Origin: Persephonella sp.
GTDB lineage: Bacteria; Aquificota; Aquificia; Aquificales; Hydrogenothermaceae
DNA length: 32,889 nucleotides
Reading direction: 5' to 3'
NCBI RefSeq assembly: GCF_015487465.1
Contig: NZ_WFPS01000004.1
Location: 1-32,889 of the forward strand
Every line of letters begins with the position of its first letter. Positions within the stretch are counted from its first letter, which is position 1. The translations under genes were made by a program, and so were the position numbers. Shown piece after piece: positions 23,562-32,889 of this stretch. The notes beneath the pieces were generated by a model. It was not told where the DNA came from and made no database searches. It saw nothing but the letters and a program-made list of their open reading frames with translations.

Positions 23562-23795
23562 ATGAAACTGTCGCAGGTCGCCAAAGGAAAAAAATGCAGG
23601 ATAAAAAAGCTTGACTTTACTCCTGAAATGAAAAGGAGACTTCTTGAGCTTGGGCTTTTTCCCGGTCAGGAGATAGAGGTTGTTCAGGATGCACCTTTTG
23701 GTGGACCTGTGAAGATAAAAATAAAAGATTACTGCCTTGCCCTGAGAAGATCAGAAGCAAATCATATTGAGGTTGAAGAAGAAAATGAGCAGTAA
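23562..23795 (+). CDS. feoA: Ferrous iron transport protein FeoA
   Basis: A 77-residue SH3-like cytoplasmic protein that supports FeoB. Typical elements are KLSQVAKGKKCRI, MKRRLLELGLFPGQEIEVVQDAPFGGPVKI in parts, and LALRRSEANHIEV near the end. The ATG at 23562 follows AGGAAGAGAAA. Its 3' end overlaps the feoB start by 11 bases, so translation is coupled. Confidence 0.95.
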   Translation: MKLSQVAKGKKCRIKKLDFTPEMKRRLLELGLFPGQEIEVVQDAPFGGPVKIKIKDYCLALRRSEANHIEVEEENEQ

Positions 23796-25953
23796 AGTCA
23801 TAAAAGTTGCTGTTGCCGGAAATCCTAACACAGGAAAAACAACCCTAATAAATGCTATAGCAGGAACTAACTTACATGTTGGAAACTGGCCGGGAGTTAC
23901 AATAGAAAAGAAAGAGGCAAAGTTCAGATACAAAGATTATGAGATACATCTTATAGACCTTCCTGGGACTTACAGCCTCAGCAACAACTCAGAAGAAGAA
24001 AAGATAGCTGTAGATTTTCTCATAAAGGAAAAACCTGATGTTGTTATAGATGTTGTTGACTCAACTAATCTTGAAAGAAATCTTTATCTGACTGTGCAAC
24101 TGCTTGAGCTTGAGCTTCCTGTTGTTATAGCCCTTAACATGTGGGACGAAGCAGTAGCAAAGGGAATTGAGATTGATTATAAAAAACTTGAAGAGCTATT
24201 GTGCGTCAAAGCAGTTCCAACATCTGCTGTAAAAGGAGAAGGGATTAATCAGCTTCTTGATGCTGTAATTGAAATTTTTAACAGAAAGGAAAAACCTGTA
24301 TGTGTTTTACACTTTGAGGATCCACTTGAGGAAGAGATAAAAAAAATACTGAAACAGATAGAAGAGATACAGCCTGTTTTGCTTGATCTTTACCCTAAAA
24401 GATACCTCGTTCTGTCCTTAATTGAAGGAAATGAATCATTCATTGATCTTCCTATAAATGAAAAACTTCAGCAGATAATACAGCAGTTCAGACAGAATAT
24501 CAAAAAGCTGTACCACAGAGATCCTGTAACCCTTATTGTTGAGGAGAGATACTCCATAATAATAAGCATTTACGAGCAGGTTGTAAAAAAACACCCTGTT
24601 AAGTCTGTTGATATCACATTTCTACTTGATAAACTTTTTCTTCATAAGGTTTTTGGTCTTCCTATATTTTTTGTTCTGATGTGGCTTTTGTTTGAGTTTA
24701 CATTTGAACTTTCTTCCCCTTATGTTGACTGGCTTGACTCTGTTCTCAGTTTATTTGTTGCCCCTGCTGTATCCCAGTTTTTATCCTCCATGGGAGCATC
24801 AGAATGGTTCAGATCATTTGTTTCTGAAGGAATAATCGGTGGTGTTGGTTTTGTTCTGGTTTTTGTTCCAGTTCTCTTCTTCCTTTATGTTTTTATGGCT
24901 TTCCTTGAGGGTAGTGGTTATATGGCAAGGGCTGCATTTTTGATGGATCGTTTTATGTCTTTTTTAGGTCTCAGCGGAAAGTCGTTTATCCCTATGATTA
25001 TAGGTTTTGGGTGCAATGTTCCGGCTGTTTATGCAACAAGAACCCTTGAAAATCCTAAAGAAAAAATACTAACGGTTCTTATGATACCTTTTATGTCTTG
25101 CGGGGCAAGGCTTACAGTATATGCCTTTTTTGTGACTATATTTTTTACACAGCATAAAACAGCTGTTATTATGTTCCTTTATCTTTTAGGGATAGCTGTT
25201 GCTGTTATCGTTGCTTTTATACTCCAGAAATTCTTTTTCAAAACAAAGTCCTACCCATTTGTCCTTGAACTCCCCCCTTACAGGCTTCCAACATTCAGAT
25301 TTGTAATGAAAAACGCATGGATAAAAACAAGGGCTTTTCTTTACGAGGCAGGGACATTTATACTGGCGACATCTATTGTTATATGGTTTTTACTTCATTT
25401 TCCCATAGGTGTTAAAAAGACAGAGGATTCTGTTTTTGGTCATATAAGCAAAGTTATAGCTCCTGTTTTTGAGCCTCTTGGATTTGGAAACTGGCAGGCT
25501 GCAGGGGCTTTAATGTCTGGGTTTGTTGCAAAAGAGGTAGTTATCTCAACGATGGGTAATATATATGTTGGTGAAGTTATTGAGAAAGAAGAAGAAGAAA
25601 AGATAGACATAAAAGAAGGGCTCGTTGAAGTAGGAAAAGGGTTCATAGATGCTAACATTCAGGCAGGTGAAAAACTTTTATCTATTTTCGGTCTTATAAA
25701 AATAGCTGAAGAAGAGGAGGAAAAACCGGATACTTCTCTTATGGAGGCTGTGAGAAATGCTTTTACACCATTAACAGCATTTTCTTTTCTCGTTTTTCTT
25801 CTCCTGTACACGCCCTGTATGGCAACAGTTTTTGCCATAAGACAGGAACTAAACAGCTGGAAATGGACAGGTATATCAATTGGGCTAAATCTTACCTCGG
25901 CATGGATTGTTACATTCTTGATTTATAACATCGGTAAAATCTTCTTAGGTTAA
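23785..25953 (+). CDS. feoB: Ferrous iron transporter FeoB
   Basis: A 722-residue Fe2+ transporter. The N-terminal GTPase has G1 GNPNTGKTT (12-20), G2 PGVTIE, G3 DLPG, G4 NMWD and a helical GDI-like region. The membrane part has GFGCNVPAVYATRTLE and the C-terminal LLLYTPCMATVFAI, both FeoB hallmarks. A charged loop with runs of Glu (EKEEEEK and EEEEEK) lies between late helices. The ATG at 23785 matches the family N-terminus; an in-frame start at 23767 would add six basic residues inside feoA. No feoC follows. The next genes suggest an iron module. Confidence 0.97.
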   Translation: MSSKVIKVAVAGNPNTGKTTLINAIAGTNLHVGNWPGVTIEKKEAKFRYKDYEIHLIDLPGTYSLSNNSEEEKIAVDFLIKEKPDVVIDVVDSTNLERNLYLTVQLLELELPVVIALNMWDEAVAKGIEIDYKKLEELLCVKAVPTSAVKGEGINQLLDAVIEIFNRKEKPVCVLHFEDPLEEEIKKILKQIEEIQPVLLDLYPKRYLVLSLIEGNESFIDLPINEKLQQIIQQFRQNIKKLYHRDPVTLIVEERYSIIISIYEQVVKKHPVKSVDITFLLDKLFLHKVFGLPIFFVLMWLLFEFTFELSSPYVDWLDSVLSLFVAPAVSQFLSSMGASEWFRSFVSEGIIGGVGFVLVFVPVLFFLYVFMAFLEGSGYMARAAFLMDRFMSFLGLSGKSFIPMIIGFGCNVPAVYATRTLENPKEKILTVLMIPFMSCGARLTVYAFFVTIFFTQHKTAVIMFLYLLGIAVAVIVAFILQKFFFKTKSYPFVLELPPYRLPTFRFVMKNAWIKTRAFLYEAGTFILATSIVIWFLLHFPIGVKKTEDSVFGHISKVIAPVFEPLGFGNWQAAGALMSGFVAKEVVISTMGNIYVGEVIEKEEEEKIDIKEGLVEVGKGFIDANIQAGEKLLSIFGLIKIAEEEEEKPDTSLMEAVRNAFTPLTAFSFLVFLLLYTPCMATVFAIRQELNSWKWTGISIGLNLTSAWIVTFLIYNIGKIFLG

Positions 25954-26034
25954 TAACTTAGATCAGTATATATTTTCAAATTTAATTTAAGTCTCTAAAT
26001 TTAAACATAAAATAATGATTAAGGAGGGTTATTC

Positions 26035-26526
26035 ATGGAATTCCTTGCCCAGCTACATCCGCCTATAGTTCATTTTGCTGTAGCATTGATAATTATAGGT
26101 GTCGCTTTTGATATACTTGGCTTTGTCTTCAGGAATGACAGCCTCAAACATGCAGGGTTCTGGACTATTATTGTGGGGGCTGTTGCTGTATGGGGTGCTG
26201 CCATCTCAGGACATCAGGCAGAGGAGTTGGTGGAGGAGGCTGTTAAGGGTACGGGAGCTTACCAGCTCCTTGAGCAGCATGAGGAATTTGGAGAGATACT
26301 TCCGTGGATTGCCTCAGTGCTTGGTTTATTCAGACTGTTCTTACGCTTTAAAAAACAGAACCTTCTTTTTGGTCTTTATCTGATAGCCGGAATAGTTGTT
26401 GCAGGTATGATAGGTTTTCAGGGAAGAATAGGGGGAAAACTTGTTTATGAATACGGTGTAGGTGTAAAAACATTCCAGCAGCAGATAGAAAAGGGACATT
26501 ACTACCATGAGGAAGATGAGGACTGA
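26035..26526 (+). CDS. DUF2231-like membrane protein
   Basis: A 163-residue membrane protein with about four helices. It starts with LHPPIVHFAVAL, the family's usual HP-x-x-VHF motif, and has further conserved-type histidines in SGHQAEE and QHEEFGE; the C-terminus is His/Asp/Glu rich (HYYHEEDED). DUF2231 proteins may bind haem or metal, but no function is established to my knowledge. The ATG at 26035 follows AAGGAGGGTT. The 81-base gap after feoB is AT-rich with possible weak promoter elements. The next gene follows with the stop TGA touching its ATG. Confidence 0.75.
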   Translation: MEFLAQLHPPIVHFAVALIIIGVAFDILGFVFRNDSLKHAGFWTIIVGAVAVWGAAISGHQAEELVEEAVKGTGAYQLLEQHEEFGEILPWIASVLGLFRLFLRFKKQNLLFGLYLIAGIVVAGMIGFQGRIGGKLVYEYGVGVKTFQQQIEKGHYYHEEDED

Positions 26527-27003
26527 ATGGACAGTTCTATAAAGAAAGGCGTAGGTTTTGGACTTACATCAGGTATAATAACAACTCTTGGTATGTTGAT
26601 AGTATTATCTGCAGTATCTGAATCGAAAACAGTTGTGCTGGGAGGTATACTGTCTATAGCTATTGCAGATGCAGCTTCTGATGCGATGGGAATGCATATA
26701 TCTGAAGAATCACACGAAAGAGCAGAATCAAAACATATATGGCAGGCGACAATATCAACCTTTATATCAAAATTTATTTTTGCTGTAACCTTTTTAATTC
26801 CTATCTTAACACTAAATTTAGACAAAACAGTAATTGTGAGTCTTATATGGGGATTTTTCCTGATTGGTATATTTAGTTATAAAATAGCAAAAGACAGGAA
26901 TGAAAATCCTTTTACGGCAGTAGCCGAGCATACTACGATAGCTGTTATTGTGTTGGCTGTTATACATTTTACAGGAAATCTAATAAAAAGTTTCGCTGGA
27001 TAA
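26527..27003 (+). CDS. Ccc1/VIT-like membrane protein (possible iron or manganese transporter)
   Basis: A 158-residue protein with about five hydrophobic segments. The N-terminal half resembles the VIT1/Ccc1 family: GVGFGLTSGIITTLGML, then GGILSIAIADAASDAMGMHISEES in parts, with Asp and Met on the helix where these transporters bind metal. It is shorter than plant VIT and lacks a large ferritin-like insert, though HISEESHERAESKHIW offers His/Glu residues in the cytoplasmic loop. Position directly after feoAB and the DUF2231-like gene supports an iron storage, efflux or detoxification role. The assignment rests on motif resemblance and context. Confidence 0.6.
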   Translation: MDSSIKKGVGFGLTSGIITTLGMLIVLSAVSESKTVVLGGILSIAIADAASDAMGMHISEESHERAESKHIWQATISTFISKFIFAVTFLIPILTLNLDKTVIVSLIWGFFLIGIFSYKIAKDRNENPFTAVAEHTTIAVIVLAVIHFTGNLIKSFAG

Positions 27004-27020: not shown

Positions 27021-27049
27021 TTGAAATTATGTTTTCATTCTCATATATT
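27021..27049 (+). promoter_or_regulatory. Sigma70-type promoter of the PqqD/ATP-grasp/decarboxylase operon
   Basis: TTGAAA (27021-27026), a 17-base spacer and TATATT (27044-27049) give a good promoter, with a start near 27056 and a leader of about 38 bases before the PqqD-like ATG. It separates this operon from the iron genes upstream. A second TATAAT at 27073-27078 is too near the ribosome site to be useful. Confidence 0.6.
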
Positions 27050-27093: not shown

Positions 27094-27330
27094 ATGAAAA
27101 GACTTTCCCAGCTTGCAATAAATGAAGAAGGCTTTGTTTTTGACCCATTAACAGGGGAGAGTTTCACAGTTAATCAGACAGGACTTTTAATACTTAAAGA
27201 TTTAAAGGAAGGAAAATCTCAAGAAGAAATAATAAAAGACATCACCGAAAACTTTGAGGTTTCACAAGAGGAGGCTGAAAGGGATCTGATTGATTTTATT
27301 GAGAAGCTCAGAAGCTACAGGCTGATTTAG
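27094..27330 (+). CDS. PqqD-like / RRE-type small protein
   Basis: A 78-residue protein with the PqqD pattern: two or three short strands (FVFDPLTGESFTVNQTG, 14-30), then helix LLILKDLKEGKSQEEIIKDI, then an acidic stretch and a last helix ERDLIDFIEKLRSYRLI. PqqD proteins and related RiPP recognition elements bind leader peptides and hand them to modifying enzymes. No pqqA, pqqE or radical SAM gene is present, so PQQ synthesis is not indicated. The ATG at 27094 follows AAAAGGAG. It is the first gene of an operon with an ATP-grasp ligase and a PLP decarboxylase. Family call is from fold pattern and motif, without a search. Confidence 0.75.
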   Translation: MKRLSQLAINEEGFVFDPLTGESFTVNQTGLLILKDLKEGKSQEEIIKDITENFEVSQEEAERDLIDFIEKLRSYRLI

Positions 27331-27340
27331 GAGGAACACA

Positions 27341-28384
27341 ATGGATCAGATAATAGTAGGTGTTTCCGGGATAAATGCTGTTGATAATCCGGGTCCTGGT
27401 ATAGGTGTTGCAAAAAGTCTGAAAGAAGACAAAGACCTGAACATAAAAATAGTTGGTCTTGCTTATGATGCAATGGAGCCGGGTATTTATATGGACTGGA
27501 TTGTGGACAAATCATTTATCATGCCCTATCCATCAGGAGGTCATGATGCATTCATAAACAGGCTTTACTACATAAAAGAAACTTATGGGCTTGATTTTGT
27601 TCTTCCTGTTTTAGATGCTGAGCTACCTGTTTATATAAAATATGCAGATGAGCTTGAGAAAAATGGAATAAAAACATTTCTACCTACATTAGAGCAGTTT
27701 AAACTGAGAGGAAAAGATAGACTTACAGAGATAGCACAAAACATAGGAATAGATATTCCCAAATCAGAGGTGGTTACATCTTATGATGAACTTATAAAAG
27801 CTGTTGAAAAAATAGGACTTCCTGTTATGGTAAAAGGGGCTTTCTATAAAGCATATAGGGCTTACACAACACAGGAGGCTGTCAGCTACTATAACAAAAT
27901 TGTTGCCCAGTGGGGATACCCTATCATAGTTCAGCAGGTCGTATCAGGAGAAGAGATGAATGTTGTTGCGGCTGGAGATGGGGAAGGAAACTCACTTGGT
28001 ATGGTTGGAATAAAAAAGATGTGGATCACAGAACTGGGGAAGATATGGACAGGCGTAACGATAAAAAATGAAAAAATGCTGTCAGCAGCAAAAAAGTTTA
28101 TTGAGGTATACAAATGGCGTGGAGCTTTTGAGCTTGAGTGTATAGTGGACATAGAAAACGACAAAGTTTATCTTATTGAGATTAACCCCCGTTTTCCTGC
28201 CTGGTCGTATTTTGCAACAGGTGTTGGAATAAACATAGCCTCTAACATAGTCAGAAAAGCCTTTGACCTTCCTGTTATAGATTATCCCGATTACGAGGCA
28301 GGAAAGCTTTATGTAAGGTTTACAGACGACCTTGTTACAGATATGGAAAGATTTCAAAGAATAATTACAAGAGGTGAAAGCTAA
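27341..28384 (+). CDS. ATP-grasp carboxylate-amine ligase-like protein
   Basis: A 347-residue ATP-grasp enzyme of the CPSase/PylC-like kind. The N-terminal pre-ATP-grasp domain has GINAVDNPGPGIGVAKSL (10-27), the central part VMVKG with Lys165 for ATP, a QQVVSGEEMN loop (198-207), FELECIVD (263-270) and the metal-binding LIEINPRFPAW (278-288) with Glu280 and Asn282. Such enzymes form an amide or similar bond through an acyl-phosphate. The acid and amine substrates are unknown. It lies 10 bases after the PqqD-like gene (ribosome site AGGAGGAACACA) and one base before the decarboxylase, so all three act together. Confidence 0.85.
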   Translation: MDQIIVGVSGINAVDNPGPGIGVAKSLKEDKDLNIKIVGLAYDAMEPGIYMDWIVDKSFIMPYPSGGHDAFINRLYYIKETYGLDFVLPVLDAELPVYIKYADELEKNGIKTFLPTLEQFKLRGKDRLTEIAQNIGIDIPKSEVVTSYDELIKAVEKIGLPVMVKGAFYKAYRAYTTQEAVSYYNKIVAQWGYPIIVQQVVSGEEMNVVAAGDGEGNSLGMVGIKKMWITELGKIWTGVTIKNEKMLSAAKKFIEVYKWRGAFELECIVDIENDKVYLIEINPRFPAWSYFATGVGINIASNIVRKAFDLPVIDYPDYEAGKLYVRFTDDLVTDMERFQRIITRGES

Positions 28385-28385
28385 G

Positions 28386-29738
28386 ATGAAAAAGATATAT
28401 GAAAAACCAATCATAACAAAGCTTGAAACCGGTTTTATGAATAAATTTGGAAGTTCTCCCCTTTATGCAAGAAAGGTTAGAAGAGATATTGATGGGGTTC
28501 CCATTAATGAGCTTGTAGAAAAATACGGTTCACCCCTTTTTGTCGTATCAGAAAGGAAACTCAGAGAAAAATACAGACAGATTTACAATGCATTCGCCTC
28601 AAGATACCCAAATGTTCAGTTTGGGTGGTCATACAAAACAAACTACCTTCAGGCTGTATGTGCTGTTCTTCATCAGGAGGGTGCAATAGCTGAGGTTGTT
28701 TCTGCGTTTGAATACGAAAAGGCAAGAAACCTTGGGATAGAAGGGAAAGACATAATATTTAATGGTCCTTATAAGCCTGTTTCCATACTGGAGAAGGCTG
28801 CTGCTGAAGGTGCGATGATACATATAGACCATTTTGATGAAATTATTGATCTTGAAAAGGTTGCAGAAAAGCTGGGTAAACAGATTAAGGTTGCAATCAG
28901 GCTGAATATGGATACAGGTATCCATCCCCAGTGGAGCAGATTTGGGTTTAATCTGGAAACAGGACAGGCAACTGATGCTGTAAAAAGGATAAAAGCAGGA
29001 GGTAAGCTAATTCTTAACGGTCTTCACTGTCATATAGGGACATTTATTCTTGAGCCAGAAGCATACGCAAAAGAAGTTGAGAAAATGGTAAAGTTTGCAT
29101 ACGAGGTTGAGGATAATTTTGGATTTAAGATTGAGTATATAGATATTGGTGGTGGATTTCCGTCTAAAAATAAACTGAAAGGAACCTATCTGTCACCTGA
29201 TGTTTTAGTTCCATCGGTTGACGAGTTTGCAGAAAAAATAACAGATGCCCTTTATTCAAACCTTAGACCGGGGGATTTTCCAAAGCTAATACTGGAAACA
29301 GGTAGGGCTATTGTTGATGAAGCTGAGTATCTGATAACAACAATATTTGCCTCTAAAAGATTGCCTGACGGCAGGAAAGCATACATAGCAGATGCAGGGG
29401 TTAATCTTTTGTTTACAGCATTCTGGTATAAGTTTAATATAGAGATTGATAGGGAAGTTCAGGGAACAAATGAGCCTGCTGTTATATACGGACCTTTATG
29501 TATGAATATTGATGTTATAGATGAAGGTTCTCTCCTGCCTCCTCTTGAAAGGGGAACGAGGCTGATATTTTCTCCTGTTGGTGCTTACAATAACACCCAG
29601 TGGATGCAGTTTATAGAATACAGACCAAATGTTGTTATGGTAATGGAAGATGGAACAGTGGAAGTTATAAGGGAAAAAGAGGACATAACAGATATAGAAA
29701 GGAGAGAAAGGCTTCCAGATAAATTAAAATTAAAATAA
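28386..29738 (+). CDS. Fold-type III PLP-dependent decarboxylase (LysA-like) with leader-like N-terminal extension
   Basis: A 450-residue alanine-racemase-fold enzyme related to diaminopimelate/ornithine decarboxylases. PLP Lys84 is in GWSYKTNY, the PLP-stacking His216 in HCHIGTF, the phosphate loop GGGFP at 255-259, ETGR at 304-307, catalytic-type Cys372 in GPLCMNID and Tyr401 in PVGAYNN. All key residues are kept, so it should be active. It carries about 35 extra N-terminal residues, including Tyr5-x-x-Pro8-x-Ile10 and NKFG (19-22), that resemble RiPP leader peptides. The ATG at 28386 after AGAGGTG is chosen over a GTG at 28374 that lacks a ribosome site. A substrate other than free DAP is suggested by its context. 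Confidence 0.85.
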   Translation: MKKIYEKPIITKLETGFMNKFGSSPLYARKVRRDIDGVPINELVEKYGSPLFVVSERKLREKYRQIYNAFASRYPNVQFGWSYKTNYLQAVCAVLHQEGAIAEVVSAFEYEKARNLGIEGKDIIFNGPYKPVSILEKAAAEGAMIHIDHFDEIIDLEKVAEKLGKQIKVAIRLNMDTGIHPQWSRFGFNLETGQATDAVKRIKAGGKLILNGLHCHIGTFILEPEAYAKEVEKMVKFAYEVEDNFGFKIEYIDIGGGFPSKNKLKGTYLSPDVLVPSVDEFAEKITDALYSNLRPGDFPKLILETGRAIVDEAEYLITTIFASKRLPDGRKAYIADAGVNLLFTAFWYKFNIEIDREVQGTNEPAVIYGPLCMNIDVIDEGSLLPPLERGTRLIFSPVGAYNNTQWMQFIEYRPNVVMVMEDGTVEVIREKEDITDIERRERLPDKLKLK

Positions 29739-29754
29739 AGCAGGCATAGTTTAA

Positions 29755-31842
29755 ATGAAGAACCATTACATATCCCACATAAAAGCTGTTTTAAACAGTT
29801 ATTCAGAGATATTTTTTGTAGAGAATTACATTGCAGGTGGGATTTTTCTTCTATGCACTTTTATAAATCCTAATCTTGGTATAGCAGGGATTATAGCTTT
29901 TATTTCTGCTTACCTGTTTGCCAGGTTTTTGCGTATGGAAAAAGAGTTCCTTTCTTCCGGTTTTTATACCTACAACCCACTGCTTGTGGGACTGTCTATA
30001 GGATACCTGTTCAAAATAACGCCGATTACTGTGTTTTTTACTATAACGGCAGGTGTTCTTACCCTTATTTTTTCTGTTATGCTTTACAGTATCTTTTCAT
30101 ACTATCTTAAACTTCCAATTTTCAGCTTACCTTTTGTTATCATAAGTTCAACAATCTATTTATCTGTATCAAATTACTCAAACCTTTTTGTAGGGTCCCT
30201 CTACCCACACATAAATTTCAGCTTTTTAGAAAACCACATACCTATCTGGATTACAGGCTATCTTAAATCCTTCGGGACTATTCTATTTTTACCTGATGTT
30301 TTTGTTGGACTTCTTTTTGCATTAACTATATTTTTTATCTCAAGAATTTTGTTTATGCTTTCTGTTGTAGGGTATTACTCTGGAACATTTGCAGCTGGAT
30401 TTCTGACAGGCTCTTTCTATCAGGCATTTTCAGATATAAGCCATTTTAACTTTATACTGATTGCGATGGTTTTGGGGGGTATATTTCTTATTCCATCAAT
30501 AAAATCATACTTTATTGCTGTTGTTGGGGTTGTGATCTCCACAATTGTTCTTTCGGCTGTAAAAACATTCTGGGCTTTTTACGGCATTCCTGCCTTTACG
30601 CTACCGTTTAATTTTGTTTCTTTGACAATTTTGTATGTTCTCGGTATTTTGGGTTTTCCTTTAGTGGCAAAGGTGATAAGGAAAACCCCTGAAGAAACGC
30701 TGGATTTTTATTTGACAAACATTAACAGGTTCAAAGGTTATGAAAGAACACTTCACCTTCCTTTTTCCGGAAAATGGACTGTCTGGCAGGGATTTGACGG
30801 CAGATGGACACATAAAGGAAGCTGGAGATATGCATATGATTTTGTTATAACTGATGACAATGGAAAAACTTACAAAAATGAAGGTTTAAATCTTGAGGAT
30901 TACTACGCTTACAGAAAGCCTGTTCTATCTCCTGTAAGGGGAAGGGTTGTCAAGGTAATTTCTGACCTTCCTGATAATCCAATAGGTCAGGTTGATAAGG
31001 ATAACAACTGGGGAAATCTAATTGTGATCCATGATGTTAGGGGTTTTTTTGTTGAGATATCCCATTTATCACAGCACTCTATAAAGGTCAAAGAGGGGGA
31101 CTGGGTGGAGGTTGGAAGTTTCTTAGGACTGTGTGGTAATTCTGGCTACTCACCACAGCCACACATTCATGTTCAGGTTCAGCCTTCTGCTGAGATAGGT
31201 TCTTACACACTTCCCTTCAGTTTTGTCAGTTATATTTCTAAAAATAGATTTTATTCAAATAATCTTCCGAAAGAAGGGGAAATTGTTGAGCCTGTTTTCC
31301 CTGACAAATCACTGGAGTTGAAGATGTCATTTATTTTAGATTACCAGTTTTTTTATGATGTTATAAAAAACGGGCAGAAGATTGATACTCTCCATTTCAC
31401 TGTAAAGATGGCTCCAGACGGCACATTTTATTTTGATTCAGGAAAAGGAAAACTCTACTTTGGAAAATATGAAGGAACATTCTATTTTTACAGATTTGAT
31501 GGAAAAGATCCGTATCTAAAGCTGTTCTTTGTATCTGTTCCCAGACTTCCTCTTGCTTACCGAAAGGATATCTGGTGGGAAGATTACATACCTATTAAAA
31601 CAGTAACATCTGAAATTGAAAAATCTGTAATTCTTTTTTTCAGTTCTTTTAATCACAGCTTTGCAAAGGTAAAATATAAGGGAAGGTATGTATCTGAAAA
31701 AAGGATAGAAGGCTATGTAGAGTTTCCTGTTCTTAACATTAAAAAGGAAACTTTTGTTGAACTTGATGAAAACACAGGATTTAAAACTGTAAAAGTGGGT
31801 GATATAGAGATAAAGCTGACAGAAAAAATAGGAGGATCCTGA
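29755..31842 (+). CDS. Urea-transporter-like membrane domain fused to an M23 metallopeptidase
   Basis: A 695-residue fusion. Residues about 20-305 form a membrane domain with the two repeats of the urea transporter family (YNPLLVGLSIG, 73-83, and FNFILIAMVLGG, 231-242). Residues about 335-500 form a LytM-type peptidase with zinc ligands His353, Asp362 and His472, and catalytic His437 and His470. The final 190 residues have beta-rich character and no motif that I recognise. M23 enzymes cut peptide cross-links in peptidoglycan or other peptides, and this domain should face the periplasm. The ATG at 29755 has a weak ribosome site. Its stop overlaps the next ATG (TGATG). Whether the membrane part carries urea is not shown; a conjugate could be the cargo. 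Confidence 0.85.
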   Translation: MKNHYISHIKAVLNSYSEIFFVENYIAGGIFLLCTFINPNLGIAGIIAFISAYLFARFLRMEKEFLSSGFYTYNPLLVGLSIGYLFKITPITVFFTITAGVLTLIFSVMLYSIFSYYLKLPIFSLPFVIISSTIYLSVSNYSNLFVGSLYPHINFSFLENHIPIWITGYLKSFGTILFLPDVFVGLLFALTIFFISRILFMLSVVGYYSGTFAAGFLTGSFYQAFSDISHFNFILIAMVLGGIFLIPSIKSYFIAVVGVVISTIVLSAVKTFWAFYGIPAFTLPFNFVSLTILYVLGILGFPLVAKVIRKTPEETLDFYLTNINRFKGYERTLHLPFSGKWTVWQGFDGRWTHKGSWRYAYDFVITDDNGKTYKNEGLNLEDYYAYRKPVLSPVRGRVVKVISDLPDNPIGQVDKDNNWGNLIVIHDVRGFFVEISHLSQHSIKVKEGDWVEVGSFLGLCGNSGYSPQPHIHVQVQPSAEIGSYTLPFSFVSYISKNRFYSNNLPKEGEIVEPVFPDKSLELKMSFILDYQFFYDVIKNGQKIDTLHFTVKMAPDGTFYFDSGKGKLYFGKYEGTFYFYRFDGKDPYLKLFFVSVPRLPLAYRKDIWWEDYIPIKTVTSEIEKSVILFFSSFNHSFAKVKYKGRYVSEKRIEGYVEFPVLNIKKETFVELDENTGFKTVKVGDIEIKLTEKIGGS

Positions 31843-32744
31843 TGAAAAAATTACTGCCTGCTGTTCTTATGATTTTCACTTTTGCCTATGGAACAGAGTC
31901 AGTCAGGTTTGACGCTATGATGTATGGAGGATCAATTAATTACTCAAATTCCGATGTTAAGGATTACGGCTATTACTTGGGATTGTATGGCTACTTTGGA
32001 TTAGACAGCCAGCACTCTCTTGAAGGTAGTATAGGTTATACATACATTGAGTATTTAAATGGCAGTGATATTAATCAGTTTGATTATACTGCTCTATACA
32101 CTAACTATTCTATCCCTGAAACAAAAATAAAGGTGGGAATTCATTATATAGACTCTGATGACAAAGCTACAGATAACGGGATTGTTCTTTTTGGTGGAGG
32201 AGAGGTTTACGAACCTTACAAAAAGAATGCAGGAGTAGATTTTGCCTACTCCTATTACAGAGATTATAATGTTGCCAAAACATCTACATATTCATTTATG
32301 AGAAGAGGCTTTACCTCAACAACCAGTTCAGGTCTTTCTGTGTTCCAGATATCACCTAAGTTTGGGTTTTATATAGGGGACTACTACAATTACGGCAGTT
32401 TTTACTTTGAGACAAGAGGTTATTATATAAGACTTTCTGATGATGTTGCTTTTGGTAAAAACTTTTTCTCTGTTGAGCAGAATTTATCCTATTTTTATAA
32501 AAACTTTGTTCTGAACCTGTCAGGCTGGATAGGGGAGCAGACTTTTGCTGTGAAGAAAGATGGTTTTGTTGTGTATAACCTCTCTGAAAAATACAAGTCT
32601 GGGTTTTCTGCATCTATAAAATACATTATGGACGAAAGATCAAGTATCACAGCAGGAGTAAGTCAGGACAGATTTAAAGAGGTTGGGTCTGCAAAAACTA
32701 CAAGAGCAACTACTTTATTCTTTACATTTGGAGCTACATTTTAG
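31842..32744 (+). CDS. Outer-membrane beta-barrel protein
   Basis: A 300-residue protein with a signal peptide (about 1-17, ending AYG) and no other long hydrophobic segment. The mature part alternates polar and aromatic residues in many short strands rich in Tyr, Phe and Gly, and the last strand TLFFTFGATF ends in Phe, the usual signal for the BAM machinery. This points to a 14- to 16-strand barrel. I do not recognise the family. Translation is coupled to the fusion gene by TGATG overlap, with AGGAGGATCC as ribosome site, so it belongs to the operon and may be the exit or uptake pore. Confidence 0.75.
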   Translation: MKKLLPAVLMIFTFAYGTESVRFDAMMYGGSINYSNSDVKDYGYYLGLYGYFGLDSQHSLEGSIGYTYIEYLNGSDINQFDYTALYTNYSIPETKIKVGIHYIDSDDKATDNGIVLFGGGEVYEPYKKNAGVDFAYSYYRDYNVAKTSTYSFMRRGFTSTTSSGLSVFQISPKFGFYIGDYYNYGSFYFETRGYYIRLSDDVAFGKNFFSVEQNLSYFYKNFVLNLSGWIGEQTFAVKKDGFVVYNLSEKYKSGFSASIKYIMDERSSITAGVSQDRFKEVGSAKTTRATTLFFTFGATF

Positions 32745-32752
32745 GGTGCGGT

Positions 32753-32889
32753 ATGGATAAAAAGATTGTAATGCTTTTTTTGTTTATTTTTTATTCGGCT
32801 TTTGGATTAAGTTATGATGAGATAAAAGATGCATATCACAGATCTTACCAGTATGAGAAAACAGAAAATTATGAGGATGCGATAAAATC
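32753..32889 (+). CDS. Secreted TPR-like protein, cut by window edge
   Basis: The first 45 codons of a gene that runs off the right edge. The start has a signal peptide (MDKKIVMLFLFIFYSAFG), followed by LSYDEIKDAYHRSYQYEKTENYEDAIK, which fits the first helix pair of a tetratricopeptide repeat (alternating Tyr/Ala spacing and NYEDAI). It is 8 bases after the barrel gene with AGGGTGCGGT before the ATG. A periplasmic TPR protein next to a barrel suggests an envelope assembly or export partner. Confidence 0.65.
   Translation, partial: MDKKIVMLFLFIFYSAFGLSYDEIKDAYHRSYQYEKTENYEDAIK

Follow-up and report, generated by a model that had tools for sequence, protein, structure and literature searches.

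What does an operon do that joins a PqqD-like protein, an ATP-grasp ligase and a PLP decarboxylase to a set of envelope proteins? Such a locus lies at the end of the window analyzed here, the complete contig C4 (32,889 bases) of a near-complete 1.83 Mb genome whose kin are Persephonella and other Aquificota. Six genes on the plus strand follow each other closely. The first encodes a PqqD-like discrete RRE of 78 aa (27094..27330; PF05402 E=4.6e-15). After 10 bases comes a 347-aa ATP-grasp ligase of the CPSase-large-chain/PRK12767-like type (27341..28384; PF02786 E=5.5e-9), after 1 base a 450-aa fold-III (alanine-racemase fold) PLP decarboxylase resembling FslC/FigC (28386..29738; Orn_Arg_deC N and C), and after 16 bases a 695-aa protein, UT-M23, with a urea-transporter fold, an M23 metallopeptidase and a C-terminal beta-rich domain (29755..31842; PF03253 E=2e-64, Peptidase_M23 PF01551 E=2.6e-10). 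A TGATG overlap leads into a 300-aa secreted, putative outer-membrane beta-barrel, called from its signal peptide and position (31842..32744), and 8 bases further on a secreted TPR protein begins (32753..32889), truncated by the contig end after 45 codons. Rechecking on the sequence upheld the coordinates and gaps that the initial annotation gave for all six genes. Profile matches bear out its calls of PqqD, ATP-grasp, Orn_Arg_deC and UT plus Peptidase_M23, and its secreted TPR-like sixth gene agrees with the full-length secreted TPR proteins of relatives, which the 45 codons match.

A single promoter had been proposed for these genes. A sigma-70-like match is present 5' of the first gene (27021..27049, plus strand; TTGAAA-17-TATATT, 10/12), but promoter-like sites in the region number 14 against 18.6±3.9 in shuffled sequence, which is no excess. 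Because the promoter match is not above chance, the operon claim rests on the gene order being kept across phyla. The preceding stretch, 23767-27003, holds a FeoB-like ferrous iron transporter, a DUF2231 membrane protein and a VIT1-like fragment; of these only DUF2231/VIT recur, in close relatives.

Distribution of the gene set

Scanning 84,980 species genomes by ligase profile, and locating the ligases of GC-rich loci by tblastn, left 80 loci (57-98% identity). PqqD lies directly 5' of the ATP-grasp gene in 78 of the 80, the decarboxylase is next in 76, and UT-M23 is present in 66; absent members mostly reflect contig ends. Whether the genes stay together in related genomes had been set in advance as the refutation test of the operon, and the claim survived it. 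The order PqqD/RRE–ATP-grasp–PLP decarboxylase–UT/M23 fusion–barrel–TPR recurs across about a dozen or more phyla, with ATP-grasp proteins 57-72% identical in many phyla outside Aquificota. Beyond Aquificota, the loci carry the labels Kapabacteria, Ignavibacteria/Melioribacter, Verrucomicrobia, Lentisphaerae, Gemmatimonadota, Planctomycetota, Nitrospinia, Desulfofervidaceae and other sulfate reducers, Thermodesulfobacteria, Gammaproteobacteria (Thiomargarita), Rhodospirillales, WOR-3, Wallbacteria, Aminicenantes, Firestonebacteria and others. We state the phylum count as about a dozen because some metagenome labels are doubtful ("Klebsiella" and "Akkermansia"; the "Gammaproteobacteria" locus L144 is an Aquificota bin). 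Cultured or single-organism examples exist (L132, L134, L120), and cultured carriers include Thermodesulfobacterium hydrogeniphilum and Thermodesulfatator autotrophicus. Divergent versions in Gammaproteobacteria and Verrucomicrobiota, with ligases of only 31-43% identity, retain the same gene set. The order itself varies in some loci, with TPR-barrel first in L140 and L143 and TPR upstream in L089, L094, L096 and L099.

Within Aquificota, the ATP-grasp protein occurs in 43 of 136 genomes and 13 of 30 genera, and most carriers have the complete six-gene order, with barrel identity falling to 29-35%. Where the set is split (G094-096, G123-125, family f3), the UT-M23 gene is elsewhere in the genome but still there. 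Ligase and UT-M23 are found together in 40 Aquificota genomes (43 with each), also when unlinked, the exceptions being mostly incomplete or decayed; all 12 ligase carriers in a sample of 369 Gammaproteobacteria have a UT-M23 match, and the pairwise divergences of four system proteins correlate (Spearman 0.65-0.87). These co-occurrence and correlation figures are inflated by relatedness, yet presence is patchy even within the window's genus. That the set is retained in this many phyla points to a general physiological role. A known anti-phage defence system was rejected, as PADLOC models gave 0 matches for five operon proteins, and plasmid-borne spread was rejected, with one distant plasmid match at 28%.

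The decarboxylase and its N-terminal extension

By its PF05402 match the first protein is a PqqD-family RRE; its best NCBIfam model is NF033530, the lasso PqqD chaperone, with a score under the cut-off. The PqqD, FusE, McjB and StsC RRE groups recognize W/Y/LxxP, tolerate Y/W/L exchange in it, and bind it as a strand on RRE beta-3 (PMC12710340). A candidate of the form [YWFL]xxPx[IL] is present on one of the operon's own polypeptides, at the N-terminus of the decarboxylase, where the initial annotation had overlooked it. Nearly every decarboxylase of the system carries this N-terminal extension of about 22 residues, which has the Aquificota form KKxYEKPVIxKLxTGxMNKFG and the general form [YWFL]xxPx[IL]...G..N[KP]FG across lineages; in L112 a broken frame makes it unreadable. 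The LysA and FslC profiles start past it, near residue 31, and the window genome's own LysA is without it.

The extension comprises two blocks. Block 1 (Y5-E-K-P-I-I10; 28398..28415, plus strand), a putative RRE recognition sequence, is found as W/Y/F/L-x-x-P-x-I/L in decarboxylases of all sampled lineages, including relatives of 35-43% identity, and falls in the motif class of PqqD/FusE/StsC ligands with the same Y-to-W/L substitutions (PMC12710340). Block 2 (G16-F-M-N-K-F-G22; 28431..28451, plus strand) is a putative core or active-site segment. Its N19 is almost invariant across phyla and K20-F21-G22 nearly so; L104, L107 and L191-L193 (MNTYA, MNPLG, N-P-H/F/V) keep the Asn and lose the Lys. 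In a codon-aligned comparison of 28 Aquificota decarboxylase genes, pN/pS is 0.05 for residues 5-10, 0.35 for the spacer 11-15 and 0.07 for residues 16-22; the linker 23-31 has 0.50 and the enzyme domain 0.19. Because synonymous sites are close to saturation, the constraint acts on the protein. Two constrained blocks split by a variable spacer are, as judged from sequence, the layout of a leader and a core.

A DNA pattern for the extension matches 36 of 136 Aquificota genomes, every one with the ligase and/or UT-M23 (G120 has only a decayed UT-M23), at one match per genome and two in one genome; the reversed control gave 0 matches in the 136 genomes. The extension is kept where the decarboxylase and PqqD-ligase are on different contigs (G107, L200) and where the decarboxylase adjoins the envelope genes (G108, L202). 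The extension is therefore no side effect of translation across overlapping genes. A short separate precursor peptide was considered as the RRE ligand and rejected: a six-frame motif scan of 34 loci returned the decarboxylase only, besides degenerate chance matches, and the phylum-wide pattern gave one site per carrier genome (one exception), in the decarboxylase where it could be placed. Given the published W/Y/LxxP mapping, the decarboxylase is the obvious candidate ligand of the operon's RRE. Because no separate precursor has the recognition sequence, we consider it very probable that the RRE's target is the decarboxylase itself.

The natural read-through chain PqqD-ligase-decarboxylase of L054, whose three parts share a frame, was also modelled with AlphaFold2 after replacing stops by Gly; its PqqD lacks the first ~12 residues (mean pLDDT 89.3, pTM 0.61). 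A short strand is predicted at 431-433, directly after YEKPV, with confidence 50-76; it fits docking of block 1 to the RRE, with the RRE as partner strand being an expectation. The NKLG segment, the counterpart of GxMNKFG, is modelled as disordered (<50), and GxMNKFG is not placed confidently at the ligase.

What kind of enzyme bears this extension? LysA-like function, as first annotated, is not supported. The NF041039 FslC profile scores 232 bits and TIGR01048 lysA 219 bits, both short of their cut-offs (500 and 297.9). PDB 7kh2 (FigC) is best by sequence and by fold (33% identity, TM 0.90), where LysA and BtrK rank behind it. The protein has the PLP lysine K84, HCHIG, GGG, EtGRA, C372 and VGAYN, and its invariant active-site loop GPLCMN has CMN in place of LysA's CES. 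With a separate LysA in the genome and the wrong active-site loop, we rejected lysine biosynthesis. By sequence the enzyme is closest to N-citrylornithine decarboxylase (FslC/FigC), though it falls outside FslC proper: besides the low score, its partner is an ATP-grasp ligase and the operon encodes no NIS synthetase. FigC, SbnH, AcsE, MccE and BtrK form a subfamily for conjugated, peptide-linked or carrier-bound amino acids, in which BtrK acts on carrier-bound glutamate and MccE on a peptide-bound group (PMC7857480).

Envelope proteins

The AlphaFold2 model of UT-M23 (mean pLDDT 92.5) has a full UT fold, the M23 domain and the beta-rich C-terminal domain, and matches dvUT (3me1) and M23 enzymes. 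Pfam gave no match to residues ~500-695, which are beta-rich and confidently modelled, and none of the top 50 PDB matches covers this domain separately. The residues predicted to bind metal or act in catalysis, H353, D362, H437, H470 and H472, are present in 61 of 61 homologues, which places the domain among M23 peptidases. Its fold relatives include LasA, lysostaphin and beta-lytic protease, enzymes that cleave at glycine. The transporter half keeps the UT fold but not the urea-coordinating residues of both repeats: the Glu of dvUT repeat 2 is A/S/T/M in 61 of 61 homologues, the Gln of repeat 1 is E/A/G/T/D, and the TIGR03441 score is 113 bits against a cut-off of 274.6. The urease alpha subunit was found in 3 of 136 Aquificota genomes, none a carrier of the system, and urease in 2 of 24 carriers outside Aquificota. 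With urease missing from almost every carrier and one residue for urea binding lost, urea uptake is unlikely; urea catabolism was rejected on the same urease distribution, and a plain urea or peptidoglycan role is not supported either.

The M23 domain might mature an exported product in the periplasm, but by the positive-inside rule the charges of the loops leave the UT domain with both its ends in the cytoplasm, so M23 is predicted to be cytoplasmic. This would be unusual for an M23 peptidase, and we regard its placement as ambiguous.

The window's barrel protein has no family match. Barrel homologues occur in 15 aligned loci, and some from Verrucomicrobiota have an N-terminal TPR fused. The start of the sixth gene is 60% identical to a 204-aa TPR protein of L032, and members of this family match TPR_2 and other TPR models in 11 of 11. 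Because the two are fused in Verrucomicrobiota homologues, TPR protein and barrel probably act jointly, by analogy with the exporters PgaA, BcsC and Slam, even though they are separate genes in most lineages here and the barrel is of no known family.

Possible roles of the extension

We propose, at about even confidence, that the operon encodes a leader-guided conjugation and decarboxylation system with an envelope arm, in which the decarboxylase is also the protein that serves the RRE as substrate. Bound to the YEKPVI strand at the decarboxylase N-terminus, the PqqD-like RRE would present GxMNKFG to the ATP-grasp ligase. This ligase would form an amide bond in which an amino acid takes part, most plausibly one loaded on or passed via the N-terminal segment, or else held in the same complex. 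The decarboxylase would then strip the alpha-carboxylate from the resulting conjugate, and the product would pass to UT-M23 in the inner membrane and to the pair of TPR protein and outer-membrane barrel. As to the exact product, our confidence in any assignment is very low. Of the amino acid or peptide conjugate pathway first suggested for this locus, the conserved, linked RRE, ATP-grasp ligase and decarboxylase with their envelope set stand, while the LysA-like and plain urea or peptidoglycan roles are not supported; its remark that no named RiPP or polyamine pathway matches is supported.

That the decarboxylase tail is itself modified we hold to be slightly less than an even prospect. In one tentative version the decarboxylase may be its own carrier: RRE and ligase would load NKFG, the tethered residue would be decarboxylated, and the amine product would be released and moved by UT-M23, TPR protein and barrel. 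Block 2 could also be a docking surface that stays unmodified. We give limited credence to such an arrangement, in which the tail is a tether by which PqqD holds ligase and decarboxylase together for channelling and the substrate is a free small molecule, for example a basic amino acid in acylated form, as rhizoferrin biosynthesis uses. The nearest enzyme, FigC/FslC, uses a free small conjugate, and the lack of a confident placement of GxMNKFG at the ligase by AlphaFold2 agrees with this; yet a YxxP strand would suffice for docking, and GxxNKFG is equally constrained (pN/pS 0.07) with Asn19 near-invariant. It is improbable that the decarboxylase N-terminus is a true RiPP precursor whose MNKFG is modified, cut out at the flanking glycines by M23 and exported as a short peptide. 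The leader/core layout, the glycine at each end of block 2, the invariant M23 active site with its glycine-cleaving fold relatives and the predicted cytoplasmic location of M23, in the same place as the substrate, all fit, but one 450-aa enzyme per 6-residue peptide would be costly, the UT pore is suited to very small solutes, and the core is without the variability usual for RiPPs. An ordinary metabolic operon for uptake of urea or a small amide, or for recovery of peptidoglycan peptides with a LysA-type decarboxylase, would account for the UT and M23 domains and the LysA superfamily membership but is highly improbable given the urease distribution, the lost acidic residue of repeat 2, the separate LysA and the CMN loop, and it leaves the RRE and the extension unexplained.

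Known systems resemble the leader-guided reading in parts. FigC/FslC is nearest by sequence and fold and acts on an amino acid already conjugated distally (PMC7857480), but the rhizoferrin pathway has no RRE, no ATP-grasp ligase (a NIS synthetase instead) and no N-terminal recognition extension. The discrete RRE pathways of PqqD, FusE and StsC (PQQ, lasso peptides, sactipeptides) share the RRE family and the W/Y/LxxP class, but there the sequence is on a short precursor and here it is on a 450-aa PLP enzyme. BtrK of butirosin biosynthesis works with the ATP-grasp ligase BtrJ. It belongs to the same decarboxylase clade and acts on a carrier-bound amino acid (PMC7857480), though its carrier is a separate acyl-carrier protein, of a kind that the operon does not encode, and butirosin has no RRE. 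Borosins offer a precedent of an enzyme bearing the peptide that its pathway modifies, with the core fused to a methyltransferase (PMC7878506), but that core is C-terminal, its N-methylation is autocatalytic, and neither RRE nor ATP-grasp takes part. Graspetides use an ATP-grasp ligase on a ribosomal peptide (PMC8939145), whereas the operon's ligase is of the CPSase-like branch (CPSase_L_D2, PF02786; NF009405; PDB 2pn1 by profile), with many invariant residues including an N-terminal SGINAxDNPGPG; the operon has no short precursor, and MNKFG has no Asp/Glu acceptors for lactam or lactone rings.

Our literature searches for PqqD and ATP-grasp with decarboxylase, urea transporter, M23 or diaminopimelate decarboxylase found no description of the system, whose parts are of known kinds but are not reported there in this arrangement. 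Known RREs serve to grip precursor peptides, and in this system a metabolic enzyme of full size seems to be the conserved target. If so, leader-guided chemistry would extend beyond peptide natural products, and with a defined substrate. The carrier version, if true, would represent a new kind of biosynthetic system in a dozen or more phyla.

Duplicated and decayed copies were also seen. L047 and L123 (Thermovibrio-like G115) have, besides the main operon, a partial second PqqD-ATP-grasp pair; a 477-aa gene separates this pair from the operon. The decayed UT-M23 of G120 (contig C107) has seven stops and lies beside an extension pattern that is intact; on contig C63 of G106, two stops interrupt a fragment of the ATP-grasp gene.
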